A stretch of DNA of 60,779 nt, taken from the IMG/VR virus record IMGVR_UViG_3300032093_000138, positions 1 through 60,779 of that record. One strand, written 5' to 3'. Numbering within the stretch: the first letter of the stretch is position 1; each line of letters starts with the position of its first letter. The translations under genes and the position numbers were made by a program. Positions 32,222-48,997 of this stretch are shown here, one piece after another. The notes beneath the pieces are model-generated. The model did not search any database, was not told where the DNA came from, and saw only the letters and a list, made by a program, of their open reading frames with translations. This DNA is from a virus.

Positions 32222-32260
32222 GGGAGCGTAAGGCATTACAGGACAAAGCCTTACGCTCCC
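32222..32260 (+). repeat. Inverted repeat abutting a promoter (module 1)
   Basis: Perfect 13-bp arms GGGAGCGTAAGGC (32222-32234) and GCCTTACGCTCCC (32248-32260) around a 13-nt loop ATTACAGGACAAA. The -35 box starts at the next base. No U-tract follows, so it is not a textbook terminator. Related copies lie at 34603, 42760, 48957 and, degenerate, 45134. Confidence 0.9.
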
Positions 32261-32289
32261 TTGACTTTGGGGTAGTTTGTAGGTACATT
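32261..32289 (+). promoter_or_regulatory. Sigma-70 promoter of the VWA gene
   Basis: TTGACT at 32261-32266, 17-bp spacer, TACATT at 32284-32289; predicted start near 32296, leader of about 28 nt. Directly follows hairpin module 1. Confidence 0.75.
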
Positions 32290-32323
32290 TCAACGTATCC
32301 CCAAAACCCCTTCATATAGGACT

Positions 32324-34594
32324 ATGACGAAAAACACCTCTCATTCTAACTACTGGCTGGACTCTGACCTCTTCGACGATGAGAACGAACTGCAGGATGG
32401 TGTCGAGGAGACAGAGGAAATTGCCAATCTGGCACGGGTCGCTCGGCTCAGTGCCGCTCGTCGTGCCACTGCGAACTTTGTCAACATTCTGACAGGTCGT
32501 AATGATATTCCGGTTCGGTATTCGTCGGGCAAGGATAGTTACACCGATGGTAAGGAAGTTATCATCGCCGCTGACGACAATCCCAATCATTTCGATTCTA
32601 TGGTCGGCCTCGCTCTCCACGAAGGTAGTCACGTTCTTCTGAGCGACTTTGAATTTGTTTCCGCTGTAGCTGAAGTTGCCAAGCAGATTGACACCGATTG
32701 GGGTATCGATACCCGATGGGGCAATCGCGTTCTCCCACAGCAGAATCACGGCTATGATGAACAAATTGAAGTGAGTACTGTCCTTAAGAAGATTCTCCAT
32801 CCGTCTCTTGCGGCACTACTCCCACCTGCGATGACCAATGCCCGTCATTCGGACAATGTGACATTGTATGCACGTGTTGCTCGTCAGTATGTTCACGACC
32901 TGCAGATGATTATGAACATCCTTGAAGATCGTCGTATCGACAAGTATGTGTATCAGAATTGCGGTGGATATCGTCCTTACTACGATAGCCTGTATGAAAG
33001 GTACTTTTTTACTACGGAGATTGAACGTAATCTTCGCTGGAATCCGAGCTGGCGTGAACTGACTGTTGAGAACTACATCAATCGTCTATTGTTTGTTATT
33101 CACCCGGCATCGAATCCGACTGCGCTTCCCGGCTTGGATACTCTTATCAAGATGATGGACCTTCGAAACATTGAGCGTATCGCTCCGACCGATAAGGTGT
33201 GGAAGGATATTATTTCGTATGACCACATGCCTGCTATTTGGCAGACGGCCAACGAACTTTACGCTTACATTCTTCGTTTCGTCGCTCGTAGTATGGAAGA
33301 TGCGAATAAGGGCAATGAAGGCGTTCCTACCTATAACAATCAGCCGATGGATGGATTTCCTTCGGCACAGTCTGTGATTGATTCTACTAACAATCTTCCG
33401 AATCTGGACATTCCTCGGGGTCAGATGGTTCCTACGGAAGTCGAAGAGGCTGATAAGACGAAGGCTGGTAAGGAGAAGCCCCGTAACTTCAACGACAAGC
33501 GTGGTAAGTCACAGGTCGAGAAGGCCAAGGATGTTGTCAATGGTGAGCTGAAGAAGCGGAAGGCTAAGAAGGCGGAACTTCTCGCCGCTGATGCACTGGA
33601 GAATGCGCAGGCTAAGATGGTTGACCTTAAGGGTGATGGTATTCCCGGCGGTGAGTGTATGGTGACGCGAAAGATGTCAGAGGCTATGTTTACGCAGGAC
33701 TGGTTCATCTTCCGTAGTTGGTCATCGTGGGATGGTAGCCGTGAGAACGATCTTCGTAAGAAGGCTATTGCCGCCGGTAAGCGCATGGGTCAGATTATGG
33801 TACATCGTCTCCAGGTTCGAAATGACCCCGTGATGACGAAGAACACTCGCCTTCAGCACGGTGGTCTTGACCGCCGACTGTTGGCTCAGCTGGGTATGGA
33901 TATTACCAGCGTGTTCCAGAAGTCACGCATCGATACCTTCAAGCCGGCGATGTTGCACTTGACGCTTGACGCTTCGGGTTCAATGAGTGGCCGAAAGTGG
34001 GAGAAGGTATTGACGGTCGCTACCGCTCTTGCGTATGTTGGTAACAAGATGCGCAATATTGATACGGTGATTACGATTCGCGGTGGTAACGATATTCCCG
34101 TGGTGTGTGTTGTGTTCGATAGTCGTAAGGACCAGTTCACTTCGTGGCTCAAGTGGGCTCCTCGTTTGTCACCCGCTGGTTCGACTCCCGAGGGTCTGTG
34201 TTTCAAGGCGACGATGGAACTGATTACGGAATGTGCTTCTACTCACGATGTGTACTTCATCAATTTCTCTGATGGTGAGCCGGGTTTCTCTCTGGACCTT
34301 CGCTCTATGTTGAAGAAGAAGCGTGGTCGCCGGACGTATTGGGGTGACGATGCTACGGTGTGTAGTTATCAGGGTGAGATGGCATTCAAGCACACTCGCC
34401 AGATGGTTCAGAATATGAAGGACCACGGCATCAAGGTATTGTCGTATTTCATTACCGAATCCAGTTATGGTATGACACGTTCTATGGATGTGTTCCGCCG
34501 GATGTATGGTGAGGATGCAGTGGCGGTCAACGTCGAAAACGCTTCTGACGTAATCCGTACCCTCAACAAAGCACTGACCAATCGGGGTGTGTAA
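32324..34594 (+). CDS. CobT-like protein: HExxH zincin-like N-half plus C-terminal VWA domain
   Basis: 756 residues. N-terminal half: LALHEGSHVLL gives HExxH (His99, Glu100, His103), and ILEDRRID (Glu203) is a likely third zinc ligand, as in VWA-linked metallopeptidase-like proteins. Residues 370-435 are Lys/Glu/Ala-rich and coiled. C-terminal VWA: MIDAS DASGSMSG (Asp551, Ser553, Ser555), LSPAGSTPEGL and FSDGEPG. The VWA plus adjacent MoxR-type ATPase (34723) is the arrangement of CobT/CobS and MoxR-VWA chaperone pairs that insert metals or remodel complexes. Coding is G/C-richer and uses CGT/GGT/AAG codons more than the upstream genes, suggesting strong expression. No cobalamin genes are nearby, so cobaltochelation is unlikely. 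Confidence 0.82.
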   Translation: MTKNTSHSNYWLDSDLFDDENELQDGVEETEEIANLARVARLSAARRATANFVNILTGRNDIPVRYSSGKDSYTDGKEVIIAADDNPNHFDSMVGLALHEGSHVLLSDFEFVSAVAEVAKQIDTDWGIDTRWGNRVLPQQNHGYDEQIEVSTVLKKILHPSLAALLPPAMTNARHSDNVTLYARVARQYVHDLQMIMNILEDRRIDKYVYQNCGGYRPYYDSLYERYFFTTEIERNLRWNPSWRELTVENYINRLLFVIHPASNPTALPGLDTLIKMMDLRNIERIAPTDKVWKDIISYDHMPAIWQTANELYAYILRFVARSMEDANKGNEGVPTYNNQPMDGFPSAQSVIDSTNNLPNLDIPRGQMVPTEVEEADKTKAGKEKPRNFNDKRGKSQVEKAKDVVNGELKKRKAKKAELLAADALENAQAKMVDLKGDGIPGGECMVTRKMSEAMFTQDWFIFRSWSSWDGSRENDLRKKAIAAGKRMGQIMVHRLQVRNDPVMTKNTRLQHGGLDRRLLAQLGMDITSVFQKSRIDTFKPAMLHLTLDASGSMSGRKWEKVLTVATALAYVGNKMRNIDTVITIRGGNDIPVVCVVFDSRKDQFTSWLKWAPRLSPAGSTPEGLCFKATMELITECASTHDVYFINFSDGEPGFSLDLRSMLKKKRGRRTYWGDDATVCSYQGEMAFKHTRQMVQNMKDHGIKVLSYFITESSYGMTRSMDVFRRMYGEDAVAVNVENASDVIRTLNKALTNRGV

Positions 34595-34602
34595 AGGTCA
34601 GA

Positions 34603-34639
34603 GGGACGTAAGGCATTACAGGTCAAAGCCTTACGTCCC
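34603..34639 (+). repeat. Inverted repeat abutting a promoter (module 2)
   Basis: Perfect 12-bp arms GGGACGTAAGGC (34603-34614) and GCCTTACGTCCC (34628-34639), loop ATTACAGGTCAAA, one base different from module 1. The -35 box follows with no gap. Lies 8 bases after the VWA stop. Confidence 0.9.
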
Positions 34640-34668
34640 TTGACACCCCATAGAAAGTCTGTTAGATT
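34640..34668 (+). promoter_or_regulatory. Sigma-70 promoter of the MoxR-like gene
   Basis: TTGACA at 34640-34645, 17-bp spacer, TAGATT at 34663-34668. Start near 34675, leader about 48 nt with GGAG before the GTG start. Gives the ATPase its own transcript although it directly follows the VWA gene. Confidence 0.82.
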
Positions 34669-34722
34669 TATAGAAGGTTCGAGAAGTACCAATTTCCCTA
34701 TTTCATTTTGGAGAGTATAAAC

Positions 34723-35958
34723 GTGGCTAAGCGTAAGATGGTTCGGAAGGTTTCGAAGAATGTGGTAAAGAAGTCGGTTGAGCAGATTGTGGTTCGTCTG
34801 ACTGACGCCGGTACGGTGATTGACCAGAACGGCCGTGATGTTACGAAGCGTATTCCGAAGAACAAGATCCGTGTGATGGATCGTGACGGCGTGTGTCTCC
34901 GCCTTGTTCATACCAAGACGGGTGGTGAGCAGTGGCGTTCGGCGGATATGTCGCTGTATGATTCGCTGAGCAAGACCGCTGCCCCGCTCGACGCGGTGGA
35001 TAACCGTAGTGATGAGCAGCATGGTGATGTTGAGCAGTATATCAAGGATAGTATTTCGCTCCGTCCGACTAACCTTATCCTCAGCGACTTGAAGTGGAAG
35101 TATCTGATGCGTTCCGTTGTTCGTGGTAAGAACATTATGATGACCGGCCCTTCGGGTTGTGGTAAGACTCTCGCTGTTCAGAGTGTCGCTAAGGCACTCA
35201 ATGGTCGCCCGTATTACTACTTCAACCTCGGCGCTACTACGGACCCGCGTTCTACCCTTATCGGTAATACGCATTACAATAAGGAGAAGGGTACCTATGT
35301 GGCTGACGCTCTCTTCGCTCAGGCTATTCAGAAGGAGAACGCCATCATTCTGATGGACGAGTTGACCCGAGCCACGCCGGACGCGTGGAACATCCTTATC
35401 ACCGTGCTCGACGAGAATCAGCGGTACCTGCGTACCGACGAAAAGCCGGACACGCCGACTATCAAGGTTGCCAAGGGTGTGACCTTTATCGCTACGGCGA
35501 ATATCGGTGCGGAGTATACGTCCACTCGCGTTCTTGACCGAGCGATGCTTGACCGTTTCTCGGCTATCGTAGAGATGGAACCGCTGTCGAAGGATGAAGA
35601 GGTTCGTCTCCTGTCGATGACCTATCCGAATCTCGCTGAGAAGGACATCACGGCAATCGCCGAAATCGCCGCTCATACTCGAGCGCAGGTCAAGTCCGAT
35701 GATGCCCGTGTCACTACGTCTATCTCGAGCCGTCTGACGGTAGAGATGGCTGGGCTGATGTACGATGGATTCAATCTCGCGGAGGCCGCTGAGGTGTGTA
35801 TCTATCCGTTCTTCTCGGAGGCTGGTGGTGTTGACTCCGAGCGTACCTATATGAAGCAGCTGGTCCAGAAGTATCTCCCGGCTGTCTCGGCTGGTACGAA
35901 CAATCCGTGGGAACACGTTTCCAACGGGACCGACACTAATTATGCGATGAACGTGTAA
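34723..35958 (+). CDS. MoxR/CobS-like AAA+ ATPase
   Basis: 411 residues. Start is GTG 34723 with GGAG eight bases upstream. N-terminal 120 residues are basic and specific to this protein. Walker A GPSGCGKT (142-149), Walker B ILMDE (209-213), sensor-1 TAN (258-260) and arginine-rich LDRAMLDRF (272-280) place it with MoxR/CobS AAA+ proteins. These act as ATP-driven remodellers with a VWA partner, here the 32324 protein. Codon use is like the partner and unlike upstream genes. Followed by three very small genes and a terminator. Confidence 0.9.
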   Translation: MAKRKMVRKVSKNVVKKSVEQIVVRLTDAGTVIDQNGRDVTKRIPKNKIRVMDRDGVCLRLVHTKTGGEQWRSADMSLYDSLSKTAAPLDAVDNRSDEQHGDVEQYIKDSISLRPTNLILSDLKWKYLMRSVVRGKNIMMTGPSGCGKTLAVQSVAKALNGRPYYYFNLGATTDPRSTLIGNTHYNKEKGTYVADALFAQAIQKENAIILMDELTRATPDAWNILITVLDENQRYLRTDEKPDTPTIKVAKGVTFIATANIGAEYTSTRVLDRAMLDRFSAIVEMEPLSKDEEVRLLSMTYPNLAEKDITAIAEIAAHTRAQVKSDDARVTTSISSRLTVEMAGLMYDGFNLAEAAEVCIYPFFSEAGGVDSERTYMKQLVQKYLPAVSAGTNNPWEHVSNGTDTNYAMNV

Positions 35959-36001
35959 TCGTTCACACACTTTAACTTTATATAAGAGGACCAAAAGAAC
36001 A

Positions 36002-36181
36002 ATGGGTAAGACGTTTAAGGACCAGCGGAAGTATGACAAGAAGCACCGTGACCGTGAGGATTCTGGAATGAGTAAGACGCCACGTAAGAACCGAACGGCT
36101 CGCTACGAGGAAATCATTCCCGATGAGGATGAGATGGATCGGTATGAATACCTCGACTACGATTACGACGACGAACGCTAA
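36002..36181 (+). CDS. Small highly charged protein (59 aa)
   Basis: AAGAGGACC ribosome-binding site. N-terminal half basic (GKTFKDQRKYDKKHRDRED), C-terminal half very acidic (DEDEMDRYEYLDYDYDDE). This opposed charge layout occurs in small conserved phage proteins; function unknown. Same transcript as the AAA+ gene. Confidence 0.65.
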   Translation: MGKTFKDQRKYDKKHRDREDSGMSKTPRKNRTARYEEIIPDEDEMDRYEYLDYDYDDER

Positions 36182-36204
36182 TCACAATATAAACGGTTAT
36201 ATAA

Positions 36205-36390
36205 ATGACATACAATATCGGTGAGTACGTTCAAATCGTCAATCACGCTGAGTCCGAATGTAATGGGCAGTATGGGTATATCAAAGAGATTCAAATCGGT
36301 TATGATGGCATGACCCGATTCTATACGGTCGAACTTGAAGATACCTACACCAAATGTACTTGTATCGACGATGAAATGATGGAAGGATAA
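36205..36390 (+). CDS. Small KOW/SH3-like protein (61 aa)
   Basis: IGEYVQIVNHAESECNGQYGYIKEI followed by FYTVELEDTYTKC has the strand pattern of a KOW/SH3 barrel. No obvious ribosome-binding site, so translation may be modest. Unknown role. Confidence 0.5.
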   Translation: MTYNIGEYVQIVNHAESECNGQYGYIKEIQIGYDGMTRFYTVELEDTYTKCTCIDDEMMEG

Positions 36391-36391
36391 A

Positions 36392-36460
36392 ATGCAAGCA
36401 GCAGGTACATTACTACTCATTGTTCTCGCCCTCGCGTATATCGCTTCGGCAGACGAATGA
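36392..36460 (+). CDS. Membrane micropeptide (22 aa)
   Basis: ATG one base after the previous stop, GGAAGG six bases upstream. Product is one hydrophobic helix (AGTLLLIVLALAYIA) with an acidic end. Placed directly before a strong terminator, so it is the last gene of the VWA/MoxR unit. Confidence 0.45.
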   Translation: MQAAGTLLLIVLALAYIASADE

Positions 36461-36467
36461 TACAAGG

Positions 36468-36508
36468 AAAGGGGGCCCGAAATCAAACGGGCTCCCTTTT
36501 CATTTTGT
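36468..36508 (+). terminator. Rho-independent terminator
   Basis: 12-bp stem AAAGGGGGCCCG/CGGGCTCCCTTT with one G-T pair, 8-nt loop, then TCATTTT. Ends the MoxR-containing transcript. Confidence 0.85.
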
Positions 36509-36591
36509 ACCGATAATCTTTTGAAAGTTATCGATGGTGGTTTAGTATTTATTATTAGATAGATATGACTTTTCAAACCTAATAAGTCGAT

Positions 36592-37356
36592 ATGAAACGA
36601 ATAGCAATATGCCTAGCAGGTAATCTTCGTAAATACGAACAGTTTCAAATAGAATGGATGAAGATCTCCTCGAATACAAATACTGATATTTTTTTGAGTA
36701 CATGGGACTTTACCGGAAAAAAATTAGGGGTCACCGATCCTTCGCACAAATCCTACCACGATTACAACTATAACGACACCATCCCATATAGTATAGATTT
36801 TTTAAAGACTAGAGGATTCATTGACGTAGAAATAGAACCGTTTTACCCAACATTTTATGAAAGGTTTGCAGAACAAATTCAACCGTTATGGTCCTATTAT
36901 CGATTATCGACTCCATACGATCCATATGTCGAAAGTATGAAGGGGATGCATCGTGAACATATGATTGCTTTTCTTTCGATGTGGTATAAACGATGGAAGG
37001 TATTTGACTTGTGTAATCTATATGCACGAACCCATAATATTACTTATGATATAGTGATGATGGGTAGACCTGATATTGTTCCACGACATATTGAGTATGA
37101 ATCAATAGTCGAAGACGCGATAAATGTTCGAGCTGGATATGACCAAGAGCAAGACTTTGATGACCATCTCGCTGTCGGTTCGTTTGACTTGATACGAGAA
37201 TATTCACTACTATATCCACGATTTGAATACGCTTGTCGTTACTGGCCGGTGCGTGTTGCTGAAAACCTTCACCAACCAACGGGGTACCTTCGAATCTATC
37301 TTGAACAACTCAACATCCCGATACATCTACATTCACCCTCAACTCTCAACTATTAG
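36592..37356 (+). CDS. Putative polysaccharide-type glycosyltransferase family protein
   Basis: 254 residues. ICLAGNLRKYE...DIFLSTWD at the N-terminus and MWYKRWKVFDL...YDIVMMGRPDI in the middle resemble the protein at 54423 (SGQPRN, DIFIHSW, YDMVLRIRFDF), so the two belong to one family. Pattern is that of capsule/LPS-associated proteins with a nucleotide-sugar-transferase-like fold. A weak promoter (TTGAAA-N16-TAGTAT) may lie upstream at about 36520-36547. Confidence 0.55.
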   Translation: MKRIAICLAGNLRKYEQFQIEWMKISSNTNTDIFLSTWDFTGKKLGVTDPSHKSYHDYNYNDTIPYSIDFLKTRGFIDVEIEPFYPTFYERFAEQIQPLWSYYRLSTPYDPYVESMKGMHREHMIAFLSMWYKRWKVFDLCNLYARTHNITYDIVMMGRPDIVPRHIEYESIVEDAINVRAGYDQEQDFDDHLAVGSFDLIREYSLLYPRFEYACRYWPVRVAENLHQPTGYLRIYLEQLNIPIHLHSPSTLNY

Positions 37357-37502
37357 ATCGTATTTTGTCGGGCAACCTTAATACATATATAAACAAGTAT
37401 ACACCAATATTCACCAGGCGTTTTTAAAAAATTTTTGACCCCACGAATTTCAAGCGTGTTGCTCATATACCGCTTGATCGTACCCTATGGAAAGAACCAG
37501 TT

Positions 37503-38162
37503 ATGACGATTAAGAATCCCAATGCCCCAACCGGTGGACGCCCACCTGCGAAACCGATTCTCCGTGCCGAAATCGAAGAAGCACAACGGCACACGAAGAG
37601 TAATAGCCAAGCCGCCAAGTATCTCAATGTCCCGTATAAACGCTATAAACAATATGCGGAGTTATACGGGTTGTTCGCCGGGCACTTGAACGTGCGGGGC
37701 GTCGGGATTGATAAAGGGTTTGGCAAGAAGCCAACCAGTATCCCGCTCCGTGATATCTTGTCGGGCAAACATCCTACCTATAGTCTCAGCAAACTGAAGA
37801 ATAGACTCATCGCCAGACAGAAACTATCAGAACACTGCGCACTCTGTGGATTCCACGAACGCCGCATTACGGATGGAAAAGTCCCCCTGATGTTATCATT
37901 CAAGGATGGCAACCGTAGTCATATGCAACTGGACAACCTGGAACTCCGCTGTTATAACTGTATGTTCCTCACTACTGGAGCACCAAGTGTCGTGTACAGG
38001 GGATATATGGAACGTTCACTCCGTGCGGATCTCCCACCATATACTCGACACTATGATACCGACCCCATCCCGGCCGATGCGATTGACCCCTCCGACGATC
38101 TCCCGACTTCCGATGTCACCCTCACGCCCGAGGAATTGGAAGCCCTCTATAATCCCGATTGA
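37503..38162 (+). CDS. HNH endonuclease with N-terminal helix-turn-helix
   Basis: 219 residues. NSQAAKYLNVPYKRYKQYAELYG (about 34-56) is a helix-turn-helix; HCALCGFHERR (near 111) and DNLELRCYNCMF (near 143) supply the two CxxC zinc knuckles of an HNH nuclease, with DGNRSH between. Probably a homing or mobile nuclease. Base use is more G/C-rich than the genes to its left. Confidence 0.78.
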   Translation: MTIKNPNAPTGGRPPAKPILRAEIEEAQRHTKSNSQAAKYLNVPYKRYKQYAELYGLFAGHLNVRGVGIDKGFGKKPTSIPLRDILSGKHPTYSLSKLKNRLIARQKLSEHCALCGFHERRITDGKVPLMLSFKDGNRSHMQLDNLELRCYNCMFLTTGAPSVVYRGYMERSLRADLPPYTRHYDTDPIPADAIDPSDDLPTSDVTLTPEELEALYNPD

Positions 38163-38187
38163 CCCCTTACCCTAATGGACCCCACGA

Positions 38188-38385
38188 ATGGATGAACACA
38201 CACTACTCCGATATCAAGAAGCGCAAGGCATGGATCTCTATGACTTTTTCCATGATGAACCTACGGATACCCCATCACATACAATCTCATTAGACTATGT
38301 GACGGAGCAGGTTCAACAGCTGACGGAACGCTTGCTTACCCATAGTCAAAACCTCGATGGCACTAGCCTCCCCATCGCGGAGTAA
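38188..38385 (+). CDS. Small unknown protein (65 aa)
   Basis: Short acidic protein (EHTLLRYQEAQGMDLYDFF) in the same transcript direction as the HNH gene. Helical. Probably real because of context, but unsupported by any family. Confidence 0.45.
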   Translation: MDEHTLLRYQEAQGMDLYDFFHDEPTDTPSHTISLDYVTEQVQQLTERLLTHSQNLDGTSLPIAE

Positions 38386-38446
38386 GCACTTTTTCCTAGA
38401 GAGACGCCTAGCCCTATAGGCGCTCGACTGCGCCCCCTTCTACGAG

Positions 38447-38482
38447 CGGTTCCCAACGTTCCACACGCTGGGAGCCGTTGTT
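38447..38482 (+). terminator. Possible terminator after the HNH operon
   Basis: 9-bp stem CGGTTCCCA/TGGGAGCCG with one wobble pair, 13-nt loop, followed by TTGTTCG. The tail is U-poor, so efficiency is uncertain. Confidence 0.45.
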
Positions 38483-38494
38483 CGTGCCGGCCCA

Positions 38495-42485: not shown

Positions 42486-42524
42486 ACGTTGTTGTCCTTG
42501 TGTTGTGGTGTGGTATTTGGTGAG

Positions 42525-42596
42525 TAGCCCTAACGGGAATCGAACCCGTCTCTCGACCTTGAAAGGGTCGCGTCCTAACCGATAGACGATAGGGCC
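42525..42596 (-). tRNA. tRNA-Glu (TTC)
   Basis: 72-nt cloverleaf; acceptor GGCCCTA/TAGGGCT (one G-U), anticodon loop CTTTCAA, T-arm GGTTCGA. Encoded at the start of a protein-coding transcript. Confidence 0.93.
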
Positions 42597-42730: not shown

Positions 42731-42759
42731 ATATTAACCAATTAAAACCCCCATGTCAA
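42731..42759 (-). promoter_or_regulatory. Sigma-70 promoter (module 3)
   Basis: On the minus strand TTGACA (42759-42754), 17-bp spacer, TAATAT (42736-42731). Preceded without gap by the inverted repeat at 42760. Confidence 0.85.
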
Positions 42760-42802
42760 GGGGGCGTAAGGCATTGAAAATCATAGCCTTATGCGCACCC
42801 CC
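42760..42802 (-). repeat. Inverted repeat abutting a promoter (module 3, imperfect)
   Basis: Arms share GTAAGGC/GCCTTA(T/C) and GGGGG/CCCCC; one arm has a 4-base insertion. Read toward the promoter, the loop is TATGATTTTCAAT, the exact reverse complement of the loop in module 4. Confidence 0.85.
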
Positions 42803-42879
42803 TCGGGACGGATCCCCAGTTTTCGGGGTTTATTCGGGTTTTTTCTTCGGTTTTCGTTCGGGTTTGTGGTACCTTATAA
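42803..42879. other. T-rich repetitive spacer
   Basis: No gene. Several near-repeats of CGGTTTT, CGGGTTT and TTCGGTTTTCG. It separates the terminator at 42880 from the promoter module. Confidence 0.5.
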
Positions 42880-42916
42880 AGAGATCCCCGCAGGGGAGTA
42901 CCGTGCGGGGATCTAT
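42880..42916 (-). terminator. Hairpin after the 43-kb genes, probable terminator
   Basis: Perfect 11-bp stem AGATCCCCGCA/TGCGGGGATCT with an 11-nt loop, right after the last gene of the unit. The minus-strand tail CTTTATAAGG is U-poor, so it may be only partial. Confidence 0.55.
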
Positions 42917-42920
42917 TTAG

Positions 42921-43130
42921 TTACTTATTGTTACTATTGAACGACACGCTCTTGAACAGAATCGTGGACAAGAAGTTGATAGCGACAGCCTGCCAGAGAT
43001 CGATCGTGGGAAGATTGAAGAGGTCCGGCATCAGAAAGTTCCAGGTCCACATCGTCGGGAAGGCCAGTAGTAGAACCAACCCGAACATCATTGCCACCAG
43101 TGCCAGTATACCAGCGATAACATCAGACAT
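42921..43130 (-). CDS. Small two-pass membrane protein (69 aa)
   Basis: Hydrophobic segments at about 4-27 and 46-60 flank MWTWNFLMPDLFNLPTIDLWQA, a motif I recall from small conserved phage membrane proteins. CGGAG ribosome-binding site. Confidence 0.65.
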   Translation of the reverse strand: MSDVIAGILALVAMMFGLVLLLAFPTMWTWNFLMPDLFNLPTIDLWQAVAINFLSTILFKSVSFNSNNK

Positions 43131-43132
43131 AG

Positions 43133-43390
43133 TTACTCCGTGAGTGCGGTAAGGAGACGTTCGAGCTTCTTTCGTTCCGCCAACATCTTATCAATACGAG
43201 CCTGGAGATCGGTCACGGTGCTGTCAATCTCGTGAATACGCCGTGGAGCGTTCTCTTCCACCATACGAATTAGGTTCACATCAGATCCCCCGAGCAGATG
43301 CTGTGGGGGCGTTGGAATGAGTGGAGCGTGATCAATGATATCATTCGGAAGCGGTGGAGGTGTCGTCTTACGCTTGAAGATAAGTCCCAT
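43133..43390 (-). CDS. Small coiled-coil protein (85 aa)
   Basis: Basic start, Pro-rich linker (TTPPPLPN), then a heptad-like helix (IDSTVTDLQARIDKMLAERKKLERLL). Probably oligomeric; function unknown. Confidence 0.6.
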   Translation of the reverse strand: MGLIFKRKTTPPPLPNDIIDHAPLIPTPPQHLLGGSDVNLIRMVEENAPRRIHEIDSTVTDLQARIDKMLAERKKLERLLTALTE

Positions 43391-43391
43391 A

Positions 43392-43820
43392 TTATGCCTT
43401 CTTGCTCGACTTCTTCGTGGTTACGGCGTCCGTGATCTGTGAGTCTACCTTAGCCTTCGGAGCCGGAGCGGGGTTCTTACGGGGACGACCACGGGGCTTA
43501 TAGTTCTTGGTAATCTCCGCCTCACGGTCATTGAAGATTCGCTCAGCGGACGTACCGGCCAACGGTGTCGGGGCTACCTGCGTCCAATCGTACTGACCCA
43601 CGCTATCGAGCGTCCCATACCACCGGCGGGGATTAAACTGAAAGCTCGACTTCGCACCGTAAATCTCCCAGCTGTTGCGGTCCACGAAGAAGCGGACGGT
43701 ATCGTTGCACTTGATGCGGTCAAACCGGCGCCCCTCAATACGTTCCACAGACTTGCTACCCTTGAGCAGAGCGGAGACGAAGGCGTTGGTGAGTTCGACA
43801 AACTTGATTGCGTGTTCCAT
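43392..43820 (-). CDS. Protein with C-terminal AT-hook
   Basis: 142 residues. Residues near 110 read KPRGRPRKNP, a canonical AT-hook for minor-groove DNA binding, followed by a Lys/Ala-rich tail. The N-terminal domain has FVDRNSWEIYGAKS...RWYGTLDSV. First gene after the promoter at 43869. Confidence 0.7.
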   Translation of the reverse strand: MEHAIKFVELTNAFVSALLKGSKSVERIEGRRFDRIKCNDTVRFFVDRNSWEIYGAKSSFQFNPRRWYGTLDSVGQYDWTQVAPTPLAGTSAERIFNDREAEITKNYKPRGRPRKNPAPAPKAKVDSQITDAVTTKKSSKKA

Positions 43821-43868
43821 GTTGGTTTCCTTGTTTAGTTGTGTTTAGTGTTTAAACTCGATGTATTC

Positions 43869-43897
43869 AATATACCCTTATATCCGGCGAAAGTCAA
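43869..43897 (-). promoter_or_regulatory. Sigma-70 promoter
   Basis: Minus strand TTGACT (43897-43892), 17-bp spacer, TATATT (43874-43869). No hairpin at the -35 side. Confidence 0.82.
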
Positions 43898-43916
43898 CCG
43901 GGATATTAAACGGTAT

Positions 43917-44243
43917 TTAAGATGATAGATGCGTGATAGACTTGATGAGGTGATATCGTTCGTGGACATCTTGAATCTGATAGGCGGCAAATAGTTCCGT
44001 CTCCACCAGATACAGATACGATTCCAGATCCATAAACTTCAGCGGGCTAGCCTGACCCTCGAAGGCTACCGATTCCCCAGCTGTCAGCTTGGTATGGAGC
44101 TGTTCGAGCTGGGGAATATGATTCACTGCGGACTGCACTACCCGCTCGAAATCGTCAGCGTAGAAGGGATCGCTATCAAGCTTGTCCCAATTGATCTCGA
44201 TCTCTTCTTGACGAGCGAACGCCTTGAGTTCAGAAAGTTCCAT
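43917..44243 (-). CDS. Unknown acidic protein (108 aa)
   Basis: Helical, acidic (MELSELKAFARQEEIEINWDKLDSDPFYADDF). TAATG overlap with the SWIM gene upstream. No family recognised. Confidence 0.55.
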   Translation of the reverse strand: MELSELKAFARQEEIEINWDKLDSDPFYADDFERVVQSAVNHIPQLEQLHTKLTAGESVAFEGQASPLKFMDLESYLYLVETELFAAYQIQDVHERYHLIKSITHLSS

Positions 44244-44569
44244 TACTTAGCTCCTGTGTGTTTACAAAACCGTCGAAACTGGTATCCGGGACACTCACAC
44301 GACCACTTCCCATTGGGTTGCATCGTGAGCGTGTACATCTTGCCCGTCGATCCCTTCACCTTCTTGGTGCGAGGTGGGACGGGCTTGGGGACTGCTGGAC
44401 GCTGCCACTCGAGCCATCCCAAGTCAAACCCTTCGGGAAGATCGCTATCCACCGGCACATCCACACCATCCACCTGGACTCGGGTGACGGTGCCGCCGGC
44501 AATCCGTAGGGAACCCGTAGCGGGAACCGTCCAGAGGGCCGGCGGGTAGGTAGACCAAACTTTAATCAT
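44243..44569 (-). CDS. SWIM zinc-finger protein
   Basis: 108 residues. The C-terminus reads YTLTMQPNGKWSCECPGYQ with FRRFCKHTGAK after it: the CxC...CxH ligand set of a SWIM finger. N-terminal part is a short beta region and Pro-rich linker. A DNA- or protein-binding role is expected from the family. Confidence 0.82.
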   Translation of the reverse strand: MIKVWSTYPPALWTVPATGSLRIAGGTVTRVQVDGVDVPVDSDLPEGFDLGWLEWQRPAVPKPVPPRTKKVKGSTGKMYTLTMQPNGKWSCECPGYQFRRFCKHTGAK

Positions 44570-44766
44570 AGCTCGATTTTCTTTCCTGTCCGAAGAAATG
44601 CCAGTGCCATCTCCATCGCTGATTCCGTATCCTCACAGTAGTAGAGGTCCGGCCACGGGAGAAACTTGGGGTGCACATATCGATTCACAAAGAACTGCCC
44701 GAATCGAATCCCCTTCTTATTCGGGCCACTGTAGAACTCCCGAACGATATCCCGCATGATACGCAT
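44566..44766 (-). CDS. Small unknown protein (66 aa)
   Basis: Start 44766 just after the previous stop, with GAGGGAAG upstream; a longer frame to 44901 would lie inside the zinc-finger gene. GIRFGQFFVNRYVHPKF then an acidic helix. ATGA overlap with the SWIM gene. Confidence 0.58.
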   Translation of the reverse strand: MRIMRDIVREFYSGPNKKGIRFGQFFVNRYVHPKFLPWPDLYYCEDTESAMEMALAFLRTGKKIEL

Positions 44767-44767
44767 C

Positions 44768-45064
44768 TTACTTCCCTCGCTTCTTCGTGGTAACGGGCTG
44801 ACCGAAGCTGTACTTCGTACCATCGGGTGCCGTGAACTGCTTCTTGAGGTGCCACCCACGACCAAACCCTGTGGTAGCCTTGACCACCTTCGGCTTGGCA
44901 ACTCGCTTCACCTTCTTGACCTTCGGGACGGCAGACTTCGGAGCCTTCCCAATCTGCTCCGGCGTCCCAGCCAGTCGAGCCGTGCAGGAACCACAGAGAA
45001 TCGCACGAATCGACTTGTCTGCTGTCTGGGGCGTCTTGCAAAACACACACTTGAGCGTAGCCAT
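44768..45064 (-). CDS. Zinc-finger protein with basic tail (98 aa)
   Basis: CVFCKTPQT (6-9) and ILCGSCTARL form one zinc site; 45-75 are Lys/Val/Pro repeats (KVKKVKRVAKPKVVK), then FTAPDGTKYSFGQP. Likely nucleic-acid binding. GGAGAAG ribosome-binding site; first gene after the 45.1-kb promoter. Confidence 0.7.
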   Translation of the reverse strand: MATLKCVFCKTPQTADKSIRAILCGSCTARLAGTPEQIGKAPKSAVPKVKKVKRVAKPKVVKATTGFGRGWHLKKQFTAPDGTKYSFGQPVTTKKRGK

Positions 45065-45096
45065 CTGATACTTCTCCTATGAAGAGGGATACTTGA

Positions 45097-45125
45097 AATA
45101 TACCCCATTTAATAGCCATCGTCAA
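45097..45125 (-). promoter_or_regulatory. Sigma-70 promoter (module 5)
   Basis: Minus strand TTGACG (45125-45120), 17-bp spacer, TATATT (45102-45097). From the -10 box onward it shares TATATTTCAAGTATCCCTC with the promoter at 48928. Confidence 0.82.
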
Positions 45126-45133
45126 GTGCCCTC

Positions 45134-45160
45134 GTAAGGCTTGACGCCCCAACGACTTAC
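45134..45160 (-). repeat. Degenerate copy of the promoter-associated inverted repeat
   Basis: GTAAGGC, 13 bases, GACTTAC: same arm core and loop length as the four intact modules but with one mismatch and no outer pairing. Lies 8 bases beyond the -35 box. Confidence 0.6.
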
Positions 45161-45362
45161 CCTCCTAATAATTTCTCGTAACTAGGGGCGAGGGGGCTTG
45201 ACAATCGGGGCGGGGAGCCTACGCTCGCGTTGCGGCGCAATTTTTTCCCTATAGGAACGCTTCTTATATAAAGATTATGGTATCGGGAAATTATCGACTC
45301 GAAGCCACCCCTAACCCGACGATATGGTATAGTCATATGGTGAGAAGTGGACTAATAGGAAA
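45161..45362. other. Intergenic region without gene
   Basis: About 200 bases between divergent-tail units. Contains an orphan TTGACA near 45200 with no -10 at the right distance, and a possible extended -10 (TGGTATAGT near 45326). Nothing else recognised. Confidence 0.4.
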
Positions 45363-45593
45363 TTATGGTCGGCGTCGGGTCATTTCTTGAATCTGGCGGA
45401 GACGGACTTGATGTTCTCGTCTGATTCGTTGTTCCTCTCGACGGCATGTATCCAGATGGCGTTGGAGTTCTCGGCGGAACTGTTGCTCTTCCAGTTGGAC
45501 TTGTCGTTCATAGTGATGGCGGAAATCAGAACTGCGGAGTGGAGCTTGAGTGAGTAGAACGGCAAGGGGGACTAGGAATAGCGTCTTAATCAT
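45363..45593 (-). CDS. Exported coiled-coil protein, spanin-like layout
   Basis: 76 residues from ATG 45593 (GAGGA upstream). A hydrophobic signal (IKTLFLVPLAVLLTQA) is followed by a purely helical Arg/Glu/Gln-rich chain. Short exported coiled coils of this kind can be spanin-like lysis or envelope proteins, but no lysis genes are adjacent. Confidence 0.55.
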   Translation of the reverse strand: MIKTLFLVPLAVLLTQAPLRSSDFRHHYERQVQLEEQQFRRELQRHLDTCRREEQRIRREHQVRLRQIQEMTRRRP

Positions 45594-45658
45594 AGAAATA
45601 TCCTCATAAAGAAATGCGTGGAAACTATTTATTACTAACACGTACACAGGAGTTATAT

Positions 45659-46105
45659 ATGGGTGATTGGTTTATTGGAGAAATTCGGACAGTTGCATTT
45701 GAGTATGCCCCAGAGAACTGGATGTTATGTAATGGACAACTCTTATCGATTGGTCAGTATCAAGCATTGTTTGCCCTTTTAGGTACCCGCTATGGTGGCG
45801 ATGGTCATAATACATTTGCTCTCCCCAACTTGAACGGGCGGGTCATCGTCGGACAAGGTACCACAACATCGATTGATGGATCATCAGTTCATTACGATAT
45901 GGGTCAATCCTTCGGTCAAGATAAACACACGATTACCGCATTAGACCTTCCGTGGTCCAACACCCCCGTGACCGCCGCAGCAGGTACGGACGTATCGGTA
46001 TCACACTTGGTCGGAAAAACTCCAGCTCCATCGAACAACTTTCCTCCAGCACTTGTATTAAACTATATTATTGCTGTTCAAGGACTCTGGCCACCCCGTC
46101 CATAA
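45659..46105 (+). CDS. Phage tail collar / microcystin-dependent-like protein
   Basis: 148 residues. GEIRTVAFEYAPENWMLCNG, LSIGQYQALFALLGTRYGGDG and FALPNLNGRVIVGQG are the signature of tail-collar domains, which end in short fibre-tip proteins. The remaining part is Gly/Thr-rich. ATG 45659 with AGGAG upstream. One of two rightward genes within a leftward block. Confidence 0.85.
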   Translation: MGDWFIGEIRTVAFEYAPENWMLCNGQLLSIGQYQALFALLGTRYGGDGHNTFALPNLNGRVIVGQGTTTSIDGSSVHYDMGQSFGQDKHTITALDLPWSNTPVTAAAGTDVSVSHLVGKTPAPSNNFPPALVLNYIIAVQGLWPPRP

Positions 46106-46109
46106 GTGT

Positions 46110-46382
46110 ATGATTCGTCTCGTCGATTTACTCGTTGAATTAGGGGACAAAGAGGACCGTTCCGTGTGGCGGACCTATGCCAATCGGTATGGAGCACGCA
46201 ACACGGTCGGTCAAGTCCGATACTTTGCGGACCGGGAATCTGCGGCGGCCTTTGCTCGGGGAGAGGTCGCAGGTCCGAAATTGGGGCGTCCGAAGAAATC
46301 CAAGAGTAAGGAACCGAAGGAACGGAAACAAACCTACGATTATACCCCGTCACGGGAAAAAGATATGGAGAAAATAAGTTAG
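46110..46382 (+). CDS. Small basic protein with AT-hook-like motif
   Basis: 90 residues. VAGPKLGRPKKSKSKEPKER (about 58-77) holds an AT-hook-like GRP core. The N-terminal half (VRYFADRESAAAFARGE) is a small alpha/beta region. Directly follows the tail-collar gene and ends in a terminator. Confidence 0.6.
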   Translation: MIRLVDLLVELGDKEDRSVWRTYANRYGARNTVGQVRYFADRESAAAFARGEVAGPKLGRPKKSKSKEPKERKQTYDYTPSREKDMEKIS

Positions 46383-46415
46383 CCCGCTACGTGTGTAGAC
46401 GGGCTAAACTTTTTA
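46379..46415. terminator. Bidirectional terminator
   Basis: Perfect 8-bp stem TTAGCCCG/CGGGCTAA, 13-nt loop, followed by ACTTTTT on the plus strand. Sits between convergent genes. Confidence 0.75.
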
Positions 46416-46428
46416 GGGGTAAAATTTT

Positions 46429-46806
46429 TTAAAACAGCTCTAGTTGGGTGGCTACGCCAATCGAATAGTCGGGAATCTGATCAGTCTTTTCAATCTCCAT
46501 TAGAACATCCCACATCTTTTCTCGAGCCATCGTTGCATCTTCTGCATTAATCTGGAACGACACGGGAACCTGATAGACGTTCTGTGCCTTTCGACGAGCC
46601 TCGGTGTGATTAAGTTCTTCAGCGCGACTCTTAATCACATTGTCCCAACTACCTTCCATATATCCCAACGATAGTACCAGCTGACGAATAGAATCCATCA
46701 GCTCATCTAGTGTGGTGTCGGTGGATACGGTGCAGGTAAAACTTGTCTGACCAAATCCTTCGTGATTAGCTTCTGCCGTAAGCTTAATAGTATTTGCTTC
46801 AGTCAT
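46429..46806 (-). CDS. Unknown protein (125 aa)
   Basis: Acidic alpha/beta protein with an N-terminal beta region (TIKLTAEANHEGFGQTSF) and central helix (TLDELMDSIRQLVLSLG). Distal gene of the unit driven from 47608. No family recognised. Confidence 0.58.
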   Translation of the reverse strand: MTEANTIKLTAEANHEGFGQTSFTCTVSTDTTLDELMDSIRQLVLSLGYMEGSWDNVIKSRAEELNHTEARRKAQNVYQVPVSFQINAEDATMAREKMWDVLMEIEKTDQIPDYSIGVATQLELF

Positions 46807-46817
46807 AATATCCTCTG

Positions 46818-47036
46818 TTAGTTTCTGGAACGGTTAATGAATCGCTTGAGTGTTTCGACAGCCTGCTTGTTCTCTGGGCGGATATAGGCCAGACGGGGAG
46901 CGGTCTTATGATCGAAAATCATAGCCCCAACATACTTTTGAACCCCGCTACATCCAACGCACGTATGTGTGTCGGGAAGTACCTCGAGCCGATCGCGGGG
47001 AATAATCGTCTTACACTTAATACAAGTTCGGGTCAT
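46818..47036 (-). CDS. DksA/TraR-like C4 zinc-finger protein
   Basis: 72 residues. RTCIKCKTIIPRDRLEVLPDTHTCVGC is the C4 zinc finger of the DksA/TraR family, which binds RNA polymerase; the long coiled coil of DksA is absent, so only the finger part remains. ATG 47036 overlaps the upstream stop (TGATG). Confidence 0.7.
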   Translation of the reverse strand: MTRTCIKCKTIIPRDRLEVLPDTHTCVGCSGVQKYVGAMIFDHKTAPRLAYIRPENKQAVETLKRFINRSRN

Positions 47037-47197
47037 CACTTTAGTAGTCCCTCTCTCACATATCGGTTGCGAGCGTTTTCGACGCGTTTGAGTGTAGCCA
47101 TATTAGTGTTAATCATACGCTCTTTGTTGCTGGACATCTTGCCACGCGTGGGTAGATTGTCGTATTCGTCATCGTACTGCTCATATCGATCGGTCAT
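47036..47197 (-). CDS. Small charged protein (53 aa)
   Basis: MTDRYEQYDDEYDNLPTRGK then a basic helix (ATLKRVENARNRYVREG). Overlaps both neighbours by a few bases. No family recognised. Confidence 0.55.
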   Translation of the reverse strand: MTDRYEQYDDEYDNLPTRGKMSSNKERMINTNMATLKRVENARNRYVREGLLK

Positions 47198-47388
47198 ACT
47201 AGTTCTCGAACGTTGTCTCGTTGTAGGGTAGCGTGATTACCAAAAACTTTCTTTGCTTCGTAATATCCTGCTCGACGGGCTTCTTGAATCGTGCGAGCGA
47301 CCACAATAGTAGACCAGTTATAGTGCTGGCTGTATGCGGTGTATACCCATTGCCGCCGGCCGGAAAGATGTGGGAGTTGCTTTTTCAT
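47194..47388 (-). CDS. Small basic protein (64 aa)
   Basis: YNWSTIVVARTIQEARRAGYYEAKKVFG suggests a small alpha/beta fold. ATGA overlap with the downstream gene and TAATG with the upstream one. Confidence 0.55.
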   Translation of the reverse strand: MKKQLPHLSGRRQWVYTAYSQHYNWSTIVVARTIQEARRAGYYEAKKVFGNHATLQRDNVRELV

Positions 47389-47582
47389 TACTCATTCTCC
47401 AAAAGGTCGGGATAGATATCCTGAACCTGCTGCGTCAGTCCCTCATCGCTATACTCATCCAACTCCTCCGACAGCTTATCGTATGCGTACTGCACCAACT
47501 CCCTAGTGGACAGATTATCCACAATACGAGCGATATACTCATCCTGCAACTTCTGTCGGGGACTACGCCAATCGTTGGTCAT
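47388..47582 (-). CDS. Small acidic protein (64 aa)
   Basis: Start at 47582 fixed by AGGAG upstream and by the promoter at 47608, which excludes a longer frame to 47636. Acidic helical (LVQYAYDKLSEELDEYSDEG). First gene of its unit. Confidence 0.58.
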   Translation of the reverse strand: MTNDWRSPRQKLQDEYIARIVDNLSTRELVQYAYDKLSEELDEYSDEGLTQQVQDIYPDLLENE

Positions 47583-47607
47583 TGTTACTCCTAAAAGGTG
47601 AAAATGC

Positions 47608-47636
47608 AATTTACTACGGTGCGGTTGATTTGTCAA
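47608..47636 (-). promoter_or_regulatory. Sigma-70 promoter
   Basis: Minus strand TTGACA (47636-47631), 17-bp spacer, TAAATT (47613-47608). Drives the 47.6-46.4 kb gene string. Confidence 0.82.
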
Positions 47637-47655
47637 GTGACTCTATTATTATCTA

Positions 47656-47727
47656 TTATTTGATTAGTCTATCCAGAATGAACATCACGATCGTGCTGAT
47701 GAGGAAAATCTTTAGCCCGAAATCCAT
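47656..47727 (-). CDS. Membrane micropeptide (23 aa)
   Basis: MDFGLKIFLISTIVMFILDRLIK: a single transmembrane helix. ATG overlaps the previous stop (TAATG). Last gene of the Gp88 unit. Confidence 0.45.
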   Translation of the reverse strand: MDFGLKIFLISTIVMFILDRLIK

Positions 47728-47825
47728 TAGAATTTCTCCATAATATAAACCATCACCATACCCGCAAGGGCCCCAACAGAAAGAATACCGATAAGAGTCA
47801 TCACGTTGATAAATCCTTGCATCAT
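47727..47825 (-). CDS. Membrane micropeptide (32 aa)
   Basis: One hydrophobic helix (VMTLIGILSVGALAGMVMVYI). ATGA overlap with the upstream gene and TAATG with the next micropeptide, so the three genes are translationally coupled. Confidence 0.5.
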   Translation of the reverse strand: MMQGFINVMTLIGILSVGALAGMVMVYIMEKF

Positions 47826-48193
47826 CCGTTACCTTCCAAGTTAATGTAATCGTCTTTCTGTACCACTGCCCAGAACATTTCGGTGATGTCCTTGCGGGTA
47901 TAGAGACGAGCGGGGAGACTACGAGACGGCTGACCATACTCGTCCGCGTCCATCATCAGCTCGTCGTAATATGCCTCAAGCCCTGTGACAATACACTCGA
48001 GCGCCACGACATTGTTGATGAGTGGAAGTTCAACAGCACTCCACTGCAATTCGCTCAGCCCGAAATCGCTGATGGCTTCTACTTCCTCCTCACGAAGCTC
48101 CATATAGTCGAGGATATCCCAAAGGGAAATTGCGGTGAATCGGGTACGGGGAATACTGTGCCCGTTGGGAGTGAGAATGTGAGTCTGGTACAT
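47822..48193 (-). CDS. Unknown acidic protein (123 aa)
   Basis: Begins one base after the Gp88 stop (TAATATG). YQTHILTPNGHSIPRTRFTAIS then acidic helices (ELREEEVEAISDFG, LEAYYDELMMDADEYG). A frame reaching 48379 would overlap gp88 and is rejected. No family recognised. Confidence 0.6.
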   Translation of the reverse strand: MYQTHILTPNGHSIPRTRFTAISLWDILDYMELREEEVEAISDFGLSELQWSAVELPLINNVVALECIVTGLEAYYDELMMDADEYGQPSRSLPARLYTRKDITEMFWAVVQKDDYINLEGNG

Positions 48194-48194
48194 A

Positions 48195-48893
48195 TTACGC
48201 CGCCTTACGAAGAATGGTGAACCCGCTGTTGTCCTTCTTAGCCTTACCCTTAGCGATGAGTCCGACGATAACGTTCTTCTCGTCGAGGAACCGCAGGTCA
48301 GTCTCGGTGCCGTCGATGACCTTGTACCCAAGATACGTCTCGGGGAGAACGTCGAACACGACAGCAACATTGTATCCACGATTCAACATCGTCGTAACAT
48401 ACGCATCGTTGCTCTCACTACGCGAGAACGTCAGATGATAGTTCGACGGAATGTTACGACGATTGGTAAGCTTGGTGTAGTCATAGAACCGCACGTTACC
48501 AAAAAACTCCATAATGTTTCGAAAGTCGATACCTTCAAAGGTAAACGATACCGTCTCCCAACGGATATCGGACGTACCGTTAAGACGGAACACAGGAATC
48601 ATACCTTCACGGTTAGCCTTACGGATAGCGGCTCGGATATCCTTCACCAGCTGAATCATAAAGCTCTCGCGGTCCTCGAAGAACCACTTGGTCTTGCGGA
48701 TACGGGCCTCCTGTGTGGCGGTGAAACGACCACGACCCGCCGTATTGAGACAGGCCGCCGCACACCCATCGGAGGCCATCGGACAGGTGTTATAACCCGA
48801 AAGAGTAGAGGGGGCAAGGTGCATGATGAAAGTCATATACCCAAGAGCCTCGCCCTTGACAGTCTTGGTGTTACCGATAGTGAGCAACTTCAT
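48195..48893 (-). CDS. Gp88-family phage protein
   Basis: 232 residues. NTCPMASDGCAAACLNTAGRG (36-56) with five cysteine-rich positions, then EARIRKTKWFFEDRESFM and RLNGTSDIRWE, is the pattern of the mycobacteriophage gene product 88 family. The Cys cluster suggests a metal or Fe-S site. Biochemical role is not established. First gene after hairpin-promoter module 4. Confidence 0.78.
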   Translation of the reverse strand: MKLLTIGNTKTVKGEALGYMTFIMHLAPSTLSGYNTCPMASDGCAAACLNTAGRGRFTATQEARIRKTKWFFEDRESFMIQLVKDIRAAIRKANREGMIPVFRLNGTSDIRWETVSFTFEGIDFRNIMEFFGNVRFYDYTKLTNRRNIPSNYHLTFSRSESNDAYVTTMLNRGYNVAVVFDVLPETYLGYKVIDGTETDLRFLDEKNVIVGLIAKGKAKKDNSGFTILRKAA

Positions 48894-48927
48894 ACGTTGG
48901 TGATGTCCTATTTTGAGGGATACTTGA

Positions 48928-48956
48928 AATATACCCTATTTAATAGGGTATGTCAA
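48928..48956 (-). promoter_or_regulatory. Sigma-70 promoter of gp88 (module 4)
   Basis: Minus strand TTGACA (48956-48951), 17-bp spacer that itself contains CCCTATT/AATAGGG symmetry, TATATT (48933-48928). Shares its downstream sequence with the promoter at 45097. Confidence 0.88.
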
Positions 48957-48997
48957 GGGGGACGTAAGGCTATGATTTTCAATGCCTTACGTCCCCC
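48957..48997 (-). repeat. Inverted repeat abutting a promoter (module 4)
   Basis: Perfect 14-bp arms GGGGGACGTAAGGC/GCCTTACGTCCCCC, 13-nt loop; read toward the promoter the loop is ATTGAAAATCATA. The -35 box begins at the next base. Lies between the glycosyltransferase stop and the gp88 promoter. Confidence 0.92.

Follow-up and report, generated by a model that had tools for sequence, protein, structure and literature searches.

Promoter-early stem-loops (PeSLs) are reportedly found in the T4-like myoviruses RB49 and phi1, where the stem-loop reportedly acts as an effective terminator and exchange between copies reportedly shuffles genes. The subject of this report is a set of five promoter-linked palindromic elements, designated A to E, in a 60,779-nucleotide (nt) stretch of viral DNA (IMG/VR virus record IMGVR_UViG_3300032093_000138, positions 1 to 60,779; "the window" below), whose architecture appears closest to that of the PeSLs of T4-like phages. 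The likeness lies in a sigma-70 promoter joined to a stem-loop at intergenic gene boundaries, in a large T4-like phage and with several copies per genome. PeSLs of T4-like phages are cited in the part of PMC4503421 consulted here. In the first 145 kb of RB49, the stems that we saw lie in the spacer between the -35 and -10 boxes (e.g., TTGACA-GGGGATCACGTATCCCC-TATACT), around the -10 box or, terminator-like, further upstream; in the window, by contrast, a sequence-specific palindrome lies just upstream of the -35 box, and only promoter D has a spacer that is itself palindromic (ACCCTATTAAATAGGGT).

Two other known systems invite comparison. PhoB, or Pho, boxes in cyanophage promoters are treated in the part of PMC10976474 consulted, and the likeness here is a possible operator just upstream of a core promoter, the same genes having a PhoB-like 11-bp direct repeat in two relatives of the phage; the difference is that the element in the window is a 27-bp inverted repeat, not an 11-bp direct repeat. 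An intrinsic terminator overlapping a promoter is suggested at C and in several relatives, where the -35 box lies in the loop of a GC-rich stem, in some cases followed by a T-run, whereas the upstream stems of A, B, and D lack a U-tract.

We read the 27-mer as a symmetric operator for a putative regulator, set within a promoter and stem-loop gene boundary, a reading to which we give a little better than an even chance. It is the best reading because the 27-mer is symmetric, stands at a near-fixed distance before strong promoters, occurs in both orientations, shows little compensatory pairing, and is replaced in relatives. A two-fold symmetric sequence kept nearly fixed relative to a promoter is what a dimer's operator would look like.

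RESULTS AND DISCUSSION

Elements and promoters in the window

The phage is a large freshwater bacterial virus with T4-like genes (T4 baseplate, gp25, gp32-like, and clamp loader A) that also encodes a UvsX-like recombinase and a DNA polymerase. This phage is also represented by longer records, of which G001 (93.9 kb) holds two copies of the element and G002 (166.6 kb) holds the same five as here and no others, apart from one 2-mismatch match elsewhere. The elements and their promoters, whose -35 and -10 boxes are near consensus, are listed here in window coordinates.

32222..32227, plus strand: left outer arm of element A, GGGAGC, which pairs with 32255-32260 in a run of 8 including flank
32228..32254, plus strand: element A, 27-bp palindrome core, GTAAGGC-N13-GCCTTAC; a G006 27-mer precedes the gene in the corresponding position
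32255..32260, plus strand: right outer arm of element A, GCTCCC, directly adjoining the -35 box
32261..32289, plus strand: promoter A, TTGACT-17-TACATT, 5' of the 756-amino-acid (aa) gene at 32324-34594
34603..34639, plus strand: element B including outer arms GGGAC/GTCCC, beginning 8 nt past the stop of the 756-aa gene
34608..34634, plus strand: element B, 27-bp palindrome core; matching 27-mers at G004:13303, G006:146284, and G028:1739
34640..34668, plus strand: promoter B, TTGACA-17-TAGATT, 5' of the MoxR-type AAA ATPase gene at 34708-35958
42731..42759, minus strand: promoter C, TTGACA-17-TAATAT, 5' of tRNA-Glu at 42524-42596; -35 hexamer at 42759-42754
42766..42792, minus strand: element C, 27-bp palindrome core, minus-strand sequence ATAAGGC..GCCTTAC; matches G004:22016
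45097..45125, minus strand: promoter E, TTGACG-17-TATATT, 8 nt from element E
45134..45160, minus strand: element E, the "decayed copy" of the original prediction; one half fits the consensus of relatives
48928..48956, minus strand: promoter D, TTGACA-17-TATATT, 5' of the gp88-family gene at 48195-48893; -35 hexamer at 48956-48951
48957..48997, minus strand: element D including outer arms GGGGGAC/GTCCCCC
48964..48990, minus strand: element D, 27-bp palindrome core; matching 27-mers 5' of gp88 in G004, G006, and G030

The original prediction had described four inverted repeats, at 32222, 34603, 42760, and 48957, fused to the -35 boxes of promoters. All four are present, each directly adjoined by its -35 box (4/4), with A and B facing right and C and D facing left as described, and with no U-tract after the upstream stem at any of them. 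Exact matches to GTAAGGC-N13-GCCTTAY occur at four places, and at up to 3 mismatches there are 15 strand matches, against 4.46 (standard deviation, 2.65) in shuffled sequence, where 0 of 100 shuffles reach 15. The outer arm of C is imperfect (GGGGGC versus GCGCACCCCC). The 13-nt stretch taken for a loop is not free sequence: C and D have TATGATTTTCAAT there, directly or as its reverse complement, the orientation relative to the promoter being opposite in the two, and the stretch contains the inner half-sites of the palindrome. The copy at 45134 is related to the others and stands 8 nt before TTGACG-17-TATATT; its promoter-distal half, GTAAGTCGTTG, equals the consensus of the relatives, and "variant" describes it better than "decayed hairpin".

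The 27-bp palindrome and its promoter linkage

Judged from the sequences, the unit that is common with other phages is the 27-bp palindrome GTAAGTNNTTGANNNTCAANNACTTAC, not the hairpin. Its layout, GTAAGTNNTTGA-NNN-TCAANNACTTAC, is two-fold symmetric and ends 5 to 8 nt upstream of the -35 box. Relatives were found through their gp88 gene and their promoters were listed for related palindromes, which (e.g., GTAAGTTGTTGATTTTCAAGCACTTAG) stand before other -35 boxes there. The element had been thought specific to this phage, which is wrong: many further viral records contain the 27-mer.

With 15 copies as seeds, a weight matrix gave scores above 20 at five places in G002, four in G004, and seven in G006. 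All 16 adjoin TTGAC, and none of the scores above 20 in G002 to G006 lies away from it; because 15 of the 16 are seeds, only this absence of other sites counts as new. The single non-seed copy is G004 13303. At up to 4 mismatches from the GTAAGTNNTTGANNNTCAANNACTTAC consensus, 24/24 places end 5 to 8 nt before TTGAC in the seven records read whole (G002, G004, G006, G016, G030, G033, and G028), which were grouped after the copies had been seen and of which G016 and G033 repeat copies of the G006 lineage.

The viral collection was also scanned with a pattern that omitted the promoter part, giving 80 stretches that include many near-identical contigs and partly overlap the seven records. Among the 87 copies in these slices, 58 have TTGAC within 18 nt downstream, every one of them (58/58) at a distance of 5 to 8 nt, and 29 have none; a looser count gave 60 of 87. 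One or more linked copies are present in 57 of the slices; these contain 85 copies at up to 4 mismatches, 80 of them linked, or 49/54 when only distinct copies are counted. Over 160 distinct places (320 sides), TTGAC stands at a distance of 5 to 8 nt in 51, and its total is 75, compared to 7 in shuffled sides. The original prediction would have been refuted by an element equally frequent away from promoters, which is not the situation in the seven records, all 24 places being linked; five unlinked copies do occur in the 57 slices, and outside this kind of phage, in further virus groups and a few bacteria, most copies lie away from any -35 box.

TTGAC also stands at 17 to 18 nt six times in the 320 sides; four of these six come from the same repeat, present several times in one bacterial genome. 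Longer spacings are seen in G018 (17, 17, 18, and 19 nt among 23 places) and G036 (17 nt among 27 places), and together these distances of 17 to 19 nt hint that the spacing may be longer in other groups. An argument from helical turns in favor of activation, drawn from the peak at 17 to 18 nt, was dropped, since that peak rests largely on the one bacterial repeat.

Sequence versus stem

The original prediction had proposed a search of relatives and a covariance analysis of the arms; the former found promoter-adjacent palindromes and the latter little compensatory pairing. Among 40 distinct promoter-linked 27-mers, much of one half of which had been fixed by the pattern used for the collection scan, Watson-Crick pairing falls within 0.07 of the independent-column value at 11 of the 13 symmetric positions. 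Pair 6/22 exceeds independence (0.95 versus 0.78), this being the phage's own G-C variant, and pair 13/15 falls below it (0.10 versus 0.35). Positions 7/21 and 8/20 are mostly unpaired, with pairing in 30% and 15% of the set. In the outer arms, the mean number of paired positions is 4.40 of 6 for this phage (n=5) and 1.63 of 6 for the other copies (n=46), random sequence giving about 1.6; G028 1739, with a full outer stem of unrelated sequence, is the single such case among the copies of other phages.

Folding of each element with 10-nt flanks was compared to that of mononucleotide shuffles, a z score of -3.5 or lower being counted as strong. Four of the five copies here have strong stems (A to D, z from -4.0 to -9.5) and E has none. 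Strong stems are found in 4 of 16 copies in relatives, namely, G028 1739 (-9.5), G004 13303 (-5.7), G004 22016 (-4.8), and G006 146284 (-3.7). With strong folds in 4/5 copies here but in 4/16 there, hairpins recur yet are not what is kept. The refuting observation that the original prediction had named, relatives that keep the promoters and lose arm pairing, is thus found in part: most copies in relatives have no extended stem and keep the promoter and the symmetric core, but those four fold strongly.

A second kind of stem surrounds the -35 box. A stem of at least 7 bp with the -35 box in its loop is found at 12 of 51 linked copies (several of which are near-identical), against 1.0 expected, and at 7 of the 161 promoter-like sites of G002 to G006, against 0.57. 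The -35 box of promoter C, for example, is also the loop of a CCCCC-TTGACAT-GGGGG stem followed by TTTT (window 42747-42765). By their sequence, promoter and terminator use the same bases at such stems. Terminator-like stems of this kind followed by T-rich sequence were also seen in G006 (L120-L128) at 81450 and 98228 and in G004 (L111) at 10977. Upstream of element C, a separate inverted repeat with a T-rich tail at window 42877-42919 is perhaps the terminator of the preceding minus-strand gene.

These stems are the ground for an account in terms of PeSLs only, in which the RNA hairpin would stop or insulate upstream transcription and the palindrome would have no separate role. The strong hairpins at A to D and in the four relatives' copies speak for it, as do the excess of stems around the -35 box, the start of B only 8 nt after a stop codon, and the T4-like replication and baseplate genes of the phage. 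We nonetheless regard it as unlikely, because 12 of the 16 copies in relatives, and E, do not fold strongly, the outer arms of the 46 other copies pair on average at the random level, the 27-mer is kept in sequence more than in pairing, and the upstream stems have no U-tract. The element may all the same serve a second function as insulator or terminator, in view of the 12/51 linked copies in which the -35 box lies within such a stem.

Matching promoters in relatives and a replacing box

The operator is also suggested by the presence of the 27-mer at matching promoters of diverged phages. Element B corresponds to G004 13303 and G006 146284, each before a MoxR-type ATPase gene (the G002 and G006 proteins are about 28 to 29% identical), and, through the G006 protein, to G028 1739. 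Element A corresponds to G006 148561 by position only, the latter preceding the gene upstream of the ATPase; no similarity was detected between the 756-aa gene and that G006 gene. Element D corresponds to G004 18261, G006 90343, and G030 67645, all before gp88 (65 to 78% identity), and element C to G004 22016, both having tRNA-Glu and a small homologous gene (79% identity) after them. The counterpart of E, G004 16138, lies two genes upstream of the gene homologous to the one behind E. Of the three options offered by the original prediction (a regulator-binding site, a cruciform switch, or an insulator), the first is best supported by such a symmetric sequence kept at matching promoters.

Two relatives, G003 and G005, lack the palindrome: at up to 5 mismatches only one place is found in G003, with 5 mismatches and no promoter, and none is found in G005. 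They have 81 and 146 open reading frames (ORFs), respectively, with a detectable match to G002, compared to 77 for G006. In both, the homologues of the 756-aa gene and the ATPase gene are preceded by CTTAATGAAATCTTAATG with 0 to 1 mismatch, and G003 has the box once more, upstream of its homologue of G004_16203, which is the gene that follows the 27-mer at 16138 in G004. The sites are as follows.

14392, 26430, and 30117 in G003 (L107-L110): CTTAATGAAATCTTAATG box
71380 and 79118 in G005 (L113-L119): CTTAATGAAATCTTAATG box

These three sites in G003 and two in G005 are all those at up to 1 mismatch, all lie before counterparts of 27-mer genes, and none is found at that threshold in the other 11 of 13 records. 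At up to 4 mismatches there are one more in G003 and four more in G005 (controls, 0 and 1), with 0 to 12 in the other records (controls, 0 to 8). Two mechanically called ORFs begin inside the box, and so their true starts are probably downstream. The genes flanking B are not adjacent in G003 and G005.

The 7-4-7 layout of CTTAATGAAATCTTAATG resembles a PhoB box, although Pho-box prediction in phage genomes is not reliable according to the part of PMC10976474 consulted. Another repeated box, TGTAAC/GTTACA, was seen upstream of gp88 and other promoters (G003 20095 and 20168, G005 89136 and 86583, and upstream of G006_91399).

Other virus groups and bacteria

In 28 viral records chosen from the scan, the palindrome is present in 1 to 20 copies at up to 3 mismatches, and the reversed control in 0 copies in each. 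Pairs of 27-mers 50 bp apart around a GC-rich hairpin occur in L151, L150, L159, and L210 (G018, G036, and kin); in G018 and G036 they cluster within a single part of the record, and in the L151 slice they are about 1 kb apart among small ORFs. In L133, L177, and L204 (G012), the pairs are 58 bp apart around ACGACCCC(GAA/TTC)GGGGTCG-like hairpins.

Bacteria seldom carry the 27-mer. The strict pattern occurs in 10 stretches of a collection of 84,980 genomes, and matches at up to 2 mismatches occur in 5 of 300 genomes of one order and in 9 of 240 of one phylum (that of a Verrucomicrobiae genome), two of which have 17 copies each. Three Verrucomicrobiota genomes, G399 (L299-L306), G580 (L307-L314), and G044 (L271-L278), have 17, 17, and 8 copies. 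In G044, 7 of the 8 lie within a longer repeat, some with TTGACT or similar about 17 nt away, and in G399 some adjoin a second palindrome, TACAGCATTC..GAATGCTGTA. Eight places were read in one of the two 17-copy genomes, and 7 of them lie outside ORFs of at least 60 aa.

Searches elsewhere were negative. A blastn search of 50,697 phage records with a 42-nt consensus matched 26 records with a best E value of 0.2, none covering 80%. No 27-mer was found in the 18.3-kb stretch read of Microcystis phage Mel-JY01, the nearest isolate by the 756-aa gene (26.6% identity), and no promoter-linked one in the first 145 kb of RB49, where the best match has 4 mismatches. Among the search results consulted, the open-access PMC literature gave no description of the palindrome.

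This distribution bears on a further reading, a palindromic repeat that moves or readily recombines, passes from genome to genome, and ends up at gene ends by chance. The occurrence of one 27-mer in viral contigs that otherwise share little, with 16 to 20 copies in 6 of the 28 records, would suit such a repeat, as would the copies inside a longer repeat in one bacterial genome (7/8), those at gene ends and inside frames in another, and the stops of mechanically called upstream ORFs that fall inside several copies. The matching positions kept across deep divergence and the tight promoter spacing in phages of this kind make it quite improbable in our view.

That several copies overlap or closely follow an upstream stop codon would fit a hairpin for RNA processing or 3'-end protection of the upstream mRNA, which we think very unlikely given a downstream promoter that is nearly always linked in this kind of phage and little compensatory pairing in the core. 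A DNA cruciform switching the promoter under supercoiling, to which the long arms of A, B, and D might lend themselves, is scarcely credible when most relatives have no extended arms and, in those relatives, a 13-nt loop and mismatched inner positions would disfavor extrusion.

The operator reading weighed

A number of observations weigh against an operator. Five of the 13 core pairs (2-5 and 10) hardly vary and are therefore uninformative about the stem, and the strong folds of 4/16 relatives' copies have been noted above. The linkage to promoters is also incomplete. At exactly 5 mismatches, the seven records have 10 places, of which 3 are promoter-linked (A, E, and G006 90343) and 7 are not, and a control pattern read backwards has 12 places at up to 5 mismatches. 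The five unlinked copies are L132 4656 and 5221, L140 7907, and L186 11858 and 11953, and 23 of the 80 slices have no linked copy at all. The spacing between palindrome and promoter spreads over 4 bp. The palindrome pairs of G018, G036, and G012, whose members stand 50 or 58 bp apart on either side of a GC-rich hairpin, mostly have no nearby TTGAC. In the other 17-copy bacterial genome, 5 of the eight places read are within ORFs, 2 overlap the end of an ORF, and 1 falls between ORFs. Among relatives, the G004 homologue of the 756-aa gene has no 27-mer, there being a stem with the -35 box in its loop instead, and among the gp88 loci that have 150 nt or more of upstream sequence, 75 in all, only 3 carry the 27-mer, this phage being one of them.

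The search for a regulator adds to these points. No helix-turn-helix appears among the 25 Pfam families shown for 65 of the 81 called proteins of 55 to 330 aa around the elements, larger proteins being covered only in part by the regulator scans; the same scan shows a Phage_DsbA protein (named transcriptional regulator) and a DksA/TraR zinc-finger protein. In other slices, 79 of 95 proteins gave 67 families, 25 of which were listed, and a 48-protein subset had, among the matches listed, one weak DNA-binding match, TFX_C (E value, 0.0012). Near-consensus -35 and -10 boxes, furthermore, make an activator seem unnecessary. Proteins common to G002 and other 27-mer phages, and not in G003 or G005, were considered as candidates, but the matches listed include no evident regulator; among them are a phrog_8420 endonuclease family, an IMP-dehydrogenase-like protein, and a membrane-like protein, the last two labels having been read from sequence. 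Absence in this comparison is weak evidence, because the records may be fragments.

We infer protein binding, regulation, and termination along the following lines, keeping the operator as the preferred reading. A dimeric regulator would bind the 27-mer on double-stranded DNA and control the promoter next to it, giving a joint response of the 756-aa gene, the MoxR-type ATPase gene, gp88, the tRNA-Glu unit, and others. The regulator may be encoded by the host or be a phage protein of another fold, and it could be an activator or a repressor. In this phage and in some relatives' copies, the flanks have become complementary, so that the upstream transcript could end in a strong RNA hairpin; in other copies a stem surrounds the -35 box. 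This stem-loop part would work like the PeSLs of T4-like phages and may limit read-through.

Neighboring genes can be described briefly. The window has 27 tRNA genes, spanning 40356-60766 on the minus strand, 24 of them between 54.3 kb and the window end. An adenylosuccinate-synthetase family protein at 14516-15583 (plus strand) matches the PurA and PurZ models, both below cut-off, and a link to modified purines is possible. The 416-aa protein is a MoxR-type AAA protein whose CobS score is far below its NCBIfam cut-off. A "CobT/vWA-like" label for the 756-aa gene was dropped, as profile searches gave no family for its protein.

A wider proposal is that one 27-bp operator is common to several large-virus groups with little else shared and to some Verrucomicrobiota, that it defines a regulon in T4-like freshwater phages, and that control is exchanged as a block with the PhoB-like box. 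We hold this to be rather doubtful; if it is true, phages would swap which signal switches the same gene set. What the elements provide is a sequence-defined candidate regulon in uncultured T4-like freshwater phages. Matching promoters carry two different operators, by our reading, and hence the question of which signal switches phage accessory genes becomes directly testable. The elements also indicate that a candidate operator can be kept more widely than the conspicuous hairpin that is variably added to it.

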